From Microvirga tunisiensis (GTDB taxonomy: Bacteria > Pseudomonadota > Alphaproteobacteria > Rhizobiales > Beijerinckiaceae): a DNA stretch of 50,242 nucleotides. Both the position numbers and the translations under genes were made by a program. The stretch spans positions 1 through 50,242 of the forward strand of contig NZ_VOSK01000025.1 in assembly GCF_009296175.1 (NCBI RefSeq). The letters are read 5' to 3'. A model generated the notes under the pieces. It did no database searches and had not been told where the DNA came from. It saw nothing but the letters and a program-made list of their open reading frames with translations. Positions 6,756 to 50,242 of this stretch are shown here, one piece after another. Every line of letters starts with the position of its first letter. The first letter of the stretch is position 1.

Positions 6756-7622
6756 TCAGTTCCGGCTTGCCACGGCGACCCCTAAGGCGGCGAGCGCCAT
6801 GCCGGCGAGCTGGATCGGGCTCAAGGTCTCGCCGAACAGCGCGAAGGCCATCAGCGCCGCGACCGGCGGCACCAGATAAAGCAGCGTCGCCACGCCCACG
6901 ACCGCGCCCTGGCGAATGAGAAAGAGCAGCAGGCCGATGGCGCCGATGGACAGCCCCAGCACGGCCCAGGCCATGGCACCGAGAAGCGGCAGGGTCAGGT
7001 CCATGTGCCCTTCCTCCGTCAGGAGCACGAGGGGCAGGGTCACGGCGGCCGCGCCGATATACTGGATGGCCGCATTGACGCGCAGATCGAGGGCGCTGCC
7101 GGTCCGCTTCTGCCAAATCGTCCCGAAGGTGATGGAGAGCATCCCGAGCAGGCAAATGCCGAGCGCCAGAGCCGGCACGCCGCCGGCCCCAAGCTTCGGC
7201 GCCACGACGAGCGCGGCTCCTAAGAAGCCGATCCCGATTCCGATCCAGCGCCCACGCGAGACCCGCTCCCCCAGGAGAGGCCCGGCCAGAAGTCCGGTCG
7301 CAAGCGGCTGAAGCCCGGCCACCAGGGCGGAGATCCCGGCAGGCAGCCCATGCTTCACCGACCAGAACACGCCGCCCAGATAGAGCCCGTGCAGGAGGAT
7401 TCCGGCGATCAGGCTGTTGCGCCAATCGTGCCAGTTGCGCGGCCAGGACACCCGGGCCACGGTGACGATCGCAACGAGGACGAGCGTTGCCAGCACGTAG
7501 CGGACGAGCAGAAAGGTCAGCGGCTCGGCATAGGGCGCCACGAACCGGGCTACGATGAACCCCGTCGCCCAGATGAGCACGAAGAGGGGCGGCGCAAGGC
7601 GAGCGAAGAGGGTCGGGTTCAT
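6756..7622 (-). CDS. DMT superfamily permease, EamA family
   Basis: Inner-membrane metabolite or drug exporter of the drug/metabolite transporter superfamily, about 288 aa with ten predicted transmembrane helices in two EamA repeats. The first repeat starts PPLFVLIWATGFIVARF and contains GLQPLATGLLAGPLLGE. The second contains ATLLYLVPPVAALMAFALFGE and ends with helix IQLAGMALAALGVAVA. The paired 'P..A...A..lfGE' ends are the usual EamA landmarks. I chose ATG 7622 (MNPTLFARLAPP); a GTG at 7658 would add 12 residues. Neither has a strong ribosome site. It is divergent from the YihY gene. Substrate cannot be inferred. Confidence 0.88.
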   Translation of the reverse strand: MNPTLFARLAPPLFVLIWATGFIVARFVAPYAEPLTFLLVRYVLATLVLVAIVTVARVSWPRNWHDWRNSLIAGILLHGLYLGGVFWSVKHGLPAGISALVAGLQPLATGLLAGPLLGERVSRGRWIGIGIGFLGAALVVAPKLGAGGVPALALGICLLGMLSITFGTIWQKRTGSALDLRVNAAIQYIGAAAVTLPLVLLTEEGHMDLTLPLLGAMAWAVLGLSIGAIGLLLFLIRQGAVVGVATLLYLVPPVAALMAFALFGETLSPIQLAGMALAALGVAVASRN

Positions 7623-50004: not shown

Positions 50005-50049
50005 GAGCATCGGCCCCAAAAGCGGGATGCACTTTTGGGGCCGATGCTC
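50005..50049. repeat. Perfect 17-bp palindrome, repeat family D, copy 6
   Basis: GAGCATCGGCCCCAAAA (50005-50021) pairs base for base with 50033-50049 across an 11-base loop. It directly borders the IS110-type element. Confidence 0.9.
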
Positions 50050-50139
50050 CCTCTACAAGTGTTGGGGGTGGACGGCCCCCTTACGGCATCGCTGTGCCAG
50101 AATGAGGTCGTTGCTGATCTCAAACACAGGAGACCGTCC
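50050..50139 (+). mobile_element. Noncoding left end of an IS110-family element, candidate bridge RNA region
   Basis: Sequence between the palindrome and the transposase start, where IS110-group elements encode their guide (bridge) RNA. Two hairpins are visible: GGGGG/CCCCC (50064-50068 with 50076-50080) and CTGTG-7-GAGGTC-6-GATCTC-3-CACAG (50092-50129). The exact left boundary is not determined. Confidence 0.5.
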
Positions 50140-50175
50140 GTGGACCAGATTATTCGCATCGGGATGGATACGTCA
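50140..50175 (+). pseudogene. IS110-family transposase, first 12 codons, interrupted
   Basis: GTG 50140 begins VDQIIRIGMDTS, the standard start of IS110-family DEDD recombinases (usually continuing Lys and a Phe-Gln-Leu-His stretch). The Asp in GMDTS is the first catalytic acid of the RuvC-like domain. The reading frame stops matching after TCA (50173-50175), where a group II intron-like sequence begins. The remaining exon lies beyond the window, so splicing could restore the protein. Confidence 0.75.
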
Positions 50176-50242
50176 GTGCGCCGGGAGACCGGCAAGGAGT
50201 AGGAGGTGAAAGTCCCCCACGATGAAGGGCAAGCAACCCACA
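50176..50242 (+). mobile_element. 5' end of a bacterial group II intron (truncated by window end)
   Basis: Starts GTGCG at 50176, the invariant group II intron 5' boundary (GUGYG). A short hairpin GCCGG-GAGA-CCGGC (50180-50193) and a GGTGAAAGTCC block follow, the sort of sequence seen at the start of bacterial intron domain I. It is on the same strand as the transposase and lies between codons (phase 0). Only 67 bases are visible; the intron-encoded reverse transcriptase would lie outside. Confidence 0.65.

Follow-up and report, generated by a model that had tools for sequence, protein, structure and literature searches.

An IS1111-type transposase gene interrupted by a group II intron, likely acquired by retrohoming, at a contig end of Microvirga tunisiensis

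Several group II introns are known whose usual home is a fixed place in a bacterial insertion sequence (IS). In Sinorhizobium meliloti, RmInt1 lies in ISRm2011-2 and RmInt2 in ISRm17 (PMC5894124); both resemble the intron described here in occupying a fixed place in a rhizobial IS, and both are reported to restrain theirs, but their hosts are other ISs (IS630 family for ISRm2011-2), whereas the present host is an IS1111-type member of the IS110 family with a probable guide RNA. For the Escherichia coli intron E.c.I4, too, all copies are reported at specific positions in transposase genes, which belong to several related types of IS, and one genome has both occupied and free homing sites, but it is a different intron and its hosts are IS3-like transposase genes (PMC3522654). 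Ll.LtrB of Lactococcus lactis, in a relaxase gene, also interrupts a gene needed for its carrier's movement; its host is a conjugative element, it is reported to reopen the host mRNA, and mRNA retargeting was shown there by experiment (PMC6003770). On the host side, the seekRNA of IS1111 elements is reported to be encoded 3' of the gene and to contain short segments that match both strands of the target, and these seekRNA or bridge RNA elements share with the present one an IS110-family transposase, subterminal inverted repeats, and a long 3' noncoding region (PMC11187229). In ISEc21, described in the same source, a guide RNA is aimed at codons surrounding a catalytic Asp of another IS; here it is an intron that is aimed at such codons. 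The word "intron" is absent from PMC11187229, the available portions of PMC13274422, PMC11376236, PMC6542083, and PMC1525189 carry no mention of an intron in IS110, and no group II intron inside an IS110/IS1111 element was found among the literature titles and abstract openings listed, a coverage that excludes most subscription papers. Introns at fixed IS places are already known from RmInt1, RmInt2, and E.c.I4; the new part is the RNA-guided type of host.

The window, that is, the whole stretch of DNA analyzed, is one entire contig of M. tunisiensis (50242 nt; contig C201 of its genome, G000), and its sequence stops at 50242. The original prediction, that an IS110 transposase is split here by a group II intron, was borne out: the window breaks off within a group II intron, which separates codons 12 and 13 of an IS110 transposase gene, and complete relatives have the same layout. 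The features at the window end are as follows.

50060 to 50139, + strand: left end of the IS110 (IS1111-type) element, 5' of the transposase start; common to contig C159 of the same genome and to Microvirga lotononidis from 50060 on, the sequence farther left being different
50068 to 50080, + strand: left subterminal inverted repeat GTGGACGGCCCCC; its partner, GGGGGCCGTCCAC, is found toward the right end in M. lotononidis, whose element is complete
50140 to 50175, + strand: transposase exon 1, VDQIIRIGMDTS, the first 12 codons; intron-free relatives go on with AAR (Lys) at this point
50167 to 50169, + strand: codon 10 (GAT), for the predicted first catalytic Asp of the DEDD motif; the position is read, and the role is the one expected from the family
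50170 to 50175, + strand: IBS1, ACGTCA, the Thr-Ser codons (ACG TCA); complementary to the EBS1 loop of complete relatives, the window's own EBS1 lying beyond the contig end
50176 to 50242, + strand: first 67 nt of the group II intron; same start at loci L053, L054, L055, L158, and L167
50200 to 50202, + strand: in-frame TAG that ends unspliced translation (open reading frame [ORF] 50035 to 50202)

The GTG start codon of the transposase at 50140 and the intron opening GTGCGCCGGGAGACCGGCAAGGAGTAG from 50176, with the first bases GTGCGCCGGGAGACCGGCAAG, were read directly. The order of residues at the junction (slash) is Asp10-Thr11-Ser12/Lys13, and Asp10 presumably is the first D of DEDD, as expected for the family, which fits the predicted placement two codons after the first catalytic Asp. 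Translated in the transposase frame, the intron gives VRRETGKE (eight codons) followed by the TAG at 50200 to 50202, and an unspliced message therefore cannot make the transposase. Rfam reported nothing at its gathering score on the window, because only 67 nt of the intron are present. Beyond 50242, the copy in the window is presumed to resemble its relatives, which are 87 to 97% identical over the visible part. Directly left of the IS, at 50005 to 50049, the window carries a palindromic REP-like repeat of the type GCATCGGCCCC..AAAAG..GGGGCCGATGC, which accounts for most of the 31 own-genome matches of the window's end; REPs have been reported as targets of IS110-family elements (PMC1525189).

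The last 183 bases (50060 to 50242) matched end to end, with 99% identity, at C159 of the same genome, which has a different left flank, is also a contig end, and breaks off at the same base. In a search of 72,556 plasmid records, 3954 matched, and only three had one place covering at least 80% of the query (50060 to 50242): these end-to-end matches were in M. lotononidis (96.7%), Microvirga ossetica (88.8%), and S. meliloti LMB1 (87.0%). Many other records matched query positions 1 to 116 only (up to 50175) and represent intron-free IS110 copies. In M. lotononidis and S. meliloti, exon 1, a 491-aa reverse transcriptase/maturase, and exon 2 follow one another in a continuous element. An element of Mesorhizobium sophorae ICMP 19535 was added by a loose-pattern scan of genome contigs, which gave at least 117 stretches; 2 of 117 hold the element, both in M. 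sophorae. The M. ossetica intron (L054), at the same IS110 position, is matched over 818 nt of the element, beyond which other transposase ORFs follow, and thus is itself interrupted; these ORFs, at 6838 to 7789 of L054, are read as an IS630-type insertion. The three plasmid records, two of which are almost without annotation, have no annotated feature at the junction.

The missing 3' half of the window's element was not found in its own assembly, where the best pieces were diverged: C485 (89%, broken by another insertion), C488 (83%), and C466 (78%). The C485 piece belongs to a second IS110 of the same group (L095, positions 540 to 1582), 89% identical to L053 in exon 2; its right flank is the same as that of the M. 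lotononidis element, yet its own right guide does not match that flank. Two further related intron starts, 81 to 82% identical, lie at unrelated sites of the genome, as shortened intron relatives at L105 (C222, 2579 to 3088) and L006 (C22, 1501 to 1654). Among 48 genomes of the genus, for which part of the candidates were scored, the junction was present in three, G000 (twice), G014, and G020, and 21 intron-free left ends were present in 7 genomes, 12 of them in G033. An order-wide DNA search of 397 genomes, with two candidates scored per genome, gave the junction in the own genome only and seven intron-free matches in four others. Viral contigs yielded no copy of the junction. Of the 4221 plasmid records that matched, 3679 are from Klebsiella, and 4194 have introns akin in their last part (60 to 80% identity); L260, one of these introns, lies outside any IS according to its annotation.

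The intron is 1914 nt long in all three complete copies (M. lotononidis, S. meliloti LMB1, and M. sophorae), and splicing in silico joined the exons in frame to give proteins of 341, 344, and 341 aa. Its exact limits come from M. sophorae, in which an intron-free copy with ACGTCA/AAGAGC stands beside occupied copies with ACGTCA/GTGCG...CCGCGAA/AAGAGC, as had been looked for. A phase 0 insertion where Lys is expected, as predicted, is thus confirmed, and a frame-breaking insertion is rejected by the same empty site; in the complete relatives the transposase resumes at Lys (AAA or AAG). Regarding the intron ends, the anticipated 5' GTGCG was present, but the expected AY at the 3' end was not the rule: the last two bases are AA in most of the group and AT or AC in a few. 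In 12 of 13 introns, conservation of the 3' end extends through CTACCGCGA and one further base; L257 has CTACCGGGA.

The ribozyme domains and the reverse transcriptase ORF anticipated beyond the contig end were found in the relatives. Rfam family RF02005 (group-II-D1D4-6, domains I to IV) matched at three of three loci with E values of 1.6e-53 or better, and no D5-D6 match was reported by Rfam on these introns. For D5-D6, a structure written by hand from the same sequences and counted on 12 introns (10 distinct rows) has 25 pairs, with 100% of 250 cells paired and 9 pairs changed on both sides; its covariation score was reached in 0 of 500 shuffles, and only 30 to 51% of cells pair when it is slid by 1 to 3 columns. 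The bulged A of D6 is 8 nt from the intron end. In all 12 introns (alignment A1, columns 6 and 34), the middle base of the AGC triad of domain V, the expected partner of which is U, stands opposite A. The intron-encoded protein (IEP; 491 aa) is open at L053, L055, and L158, and that of L053 scored 353 bits with TIGR04416 (cut-off, 300), in agreement with PF00078.

EBS1 of a group II intron base-pairs with the end of the exon that precedes the intron. The loop at the EBS1 position reads GCGTTGACGTTC at L053, L054, and L158 and GCGTTGACGTCC at L055, and the TGACGT within it is the exact complement of ACGTCA, so that the IS110 target pairs at 6 of 6 positions; pairing between the loop and the Thr-Ser codons beside the first catalytic Asp is thus predicted. 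This loop varies with the target. From 16 intron starts, 5 without a usable loop and 4 with repeated targets were left out, and for the 7 distinct targets kept, the introns' own pairing was 45 compared with a shuffled mean of 23.4, a value as high being reached in 8 of 20000 shuffles; this set excludes six of ten further introns (L252 and L256 to L260), which the 5' pattern missed. At one fixed offset, six of the seven targets pair at 5 or 6 of 6 positions. As a counterexample, the L236 target scores higher in pairing with the loop of L105, a related intron, than with that of its own intron (8 versus 6). The C222 intron loop pairs with its own target at at least 6 positions.

Of 16 distinct intron-free copies, chosen by similarity and by a pattern that both include exon 1, 13 retain the sequence ACGTCA/A. 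Within the first 300 nt no 7-mer is better conserved (rank 1 of 294, 15 rows), a rank biased by this exon 1-based selection; the wider stretch from -13 to +8 ranks 34 of 280. The homing target of the intron ribonucleoprotein (RNP) would be GATACGTCA/AAG, with insertion after TCA, and GATACGTCAAAG is the target sequence that the M. lotononidis intron would be expected to enter.

The host is assigned to the IS110 family by exon 2 of L053, which scored 311.6 bits with NF033542 (cut-off, 140) and was above the cut-offs of PF01548 and PF02371. In addition, the element has the subterminal inverted repeats GTGGACGGCCCCC and GGGGGCCGTCCAC, and in L053 about 290 nt separate the stop codon from the right end. 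The 3' noncoding stretch after the transposase stop contains two variable segments within a conserved frame, one complementary to the right target flank and the other identical in sense to the left flank, which it repeats. In a comparison of 13 targets, about 9 of them independent, the right guides scored 79 against a shuffled mean of 48.7 and the left guides 60 against one of 30.5, with 0 of 100000 shuffles as high in each case; only copies with both ends found entered this comparison, several rows being near duplicates and the own genome's copies not being among them. The right guide of L053 matches at 2 of 7 positions owing to a one-base alignment shift and was kept at 2; by eye, TCTGCCGC stands against GCGGCAGA. 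Weaker matches were those of the right guide of L261, at 4 of 7 positions, and of the left guides in L266 and L270, at 3 of 5. In S. meliloti LMB1, outside the comparison, the left guide fits by eye, and the right end is without some bases that others have. These guide-target matches in related elements support the predicted RNA guidance, and the host IS is likely RNA guided. Its guide RNA would lie 3' of the gene, at the opposite IS end, where the intron would leave it uncut. The guide segments of this IS1111 group are readable from the alignment and predict target flanks, and the right ends of L053, L057, L225, L226, L230, L261, L263, L266, and L271 form a natural series of reprogrammed guides. 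The M. lotononidis element sits between ORFs that are read as the halves of an IS630-type transposase; the right-hand ORF matched helix-turn-helix Pfam families only, with a Tc3-type match below the cut-off.

Taken as a whole, an IS1111-type transposase gene interrupted by a group II intron that likely arrived by retrohoming is a highly probable explanation of the locus. In the proposed course of events, the intron would splice with the help of its maturase and restore the full transposase, and the free intron RNP would reverse-splice into intron-free copies of the same IS group. Because an unspliced message stops within nine codons, splicing efficiency would set the transposase output of the IS. 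An alternative frame in the relatives starts at a TTG inside the intron end (L053:7973) and would lack transposase codons 1 to 12; together with the unspliced stop at 50200, this indicates that splicing likely gates the IS. That the intron no longer splices, the occupied IS being a dead passenger and both having moved only as cargo of larger elements, is a possible but doubtful reading. Very poor splicing of RmInt1 in vivo has been reported, with the effect of blocking its IS (PMC5894124), and the M. sophorae IS sits in an IS66 transposase gene, which forms its left flank (PF03050 and PF13817); on the other hand, exon 2 is open and of full length, and the IEP is open, in all three complete copies.

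With regard to movement, the intron likely homes from IS to IS. Between complete elements the intron is 89.7 to 94.5% identical and free of gaps, whereas the adjoining exon 2 is only 68.5 to 79.3% identical. At fourfold sites of three element pairs, identity was 76.9, 82.6, and 88.4% in the IEP compared with 47.8, 40.0, and 47.6% in exon 2; with IEP identity so far above that of exon 2, the intron appears to have spread among ISs that were already far apart. Against the homing model stands the rarity of the junction, found in 3 of 48 genomes of the genus and, among 397 of the order, in the own genome only. M. sophorae carries two occupied copies (A and B) and one empty copy (E). The introns of A and B have 0 differences in 1914 positions, an identity that would mislead if the assembly placed one repeat consensus at both sites, and their IS parts, over 1396 nt, show 14 mismatches and 2 gap columns. 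Copies A and E have common flanks and represent one target position with and without the intron. The numbers of mismatches in the IS were 14 for A-B, 35 for A-E, and 33 for B-E, and for this trio, recombination, or an occupied IS that inserted separately at the one guided target, would explain the pattern no less well than homing into A.

Entry of the intron into IS copies mainly through homologous recombination or gene conversion between IS110 elements, in place of retrohoming, is unlikely as a general account. It draws on M. sophorae copy A, which has the flanks of E and an IS closer to the occupied B, and on the left end and exon 1, which are 93.7 and 91.7% identical between S. meliloti and M. 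sophorae, compared with 79.3% for exon 2. However, conversion tracts would have to end near the intron edge, given the divergence of exon 2 right beside the much more similar intron, and the fit of the EBS1 loop to the site also argues for retrohoming. Joint inheritance of the intron and the IS110 as a composite element, the intron never having moved from one IS to another, would account for the single insertion point in all occupied copies (6 distinct) and for the two occupied copies in the own genome, but it is very improbable, being strongly disfavored by the fourfold-site identities (77 to 88% in the IEP versus 40 to 48% in exon 2 of the same element pairs) and by the identical M. sophorae introns in IS parts that differ by 1%. 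Finally, both own-genome copies stop at a contig end and the assembly has a contamination estimate of 8.78%, but an assembly artefact or contaminant join has a negligible probability and is rejected as a general explanation, since the same junction runs continuously into exon 2 in two plasmid records titled complete sequence and in a 588-kb contig.

Contact between EBS and IBS on the host mRNA, as used by Ll.LtrB, would be possible for the present intron too. By this analogy, the retrohoming intron may be an RNA-programmed brake on a clade of RNA-guided transposons, with one RNP homing by EBS1 guidance into diverged intron-free ISs and reopening in trans the transposase mRNA of spliced and intron-free copies, as Ll.LtrB does with relaxase mRNA; this idea is tentative and, on balance, rather improbable. 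If it were true, one RNA-guided element would police another through the sequence that the host can least afford to change.

The locus is an example from nature of an RNA-guided recombinase, of the bridge-RNA recombinase family, that is likely gated by RNA splicing. Split genes of this kind are missed by annotation. The presence of occupied and empty copies in one genome, that of M. sophorae, makes it directly testable whether the intron spares, tunes, or silences the IS, and a target in the codons beside the active site suggests how one intron may follow a diverging IS family.
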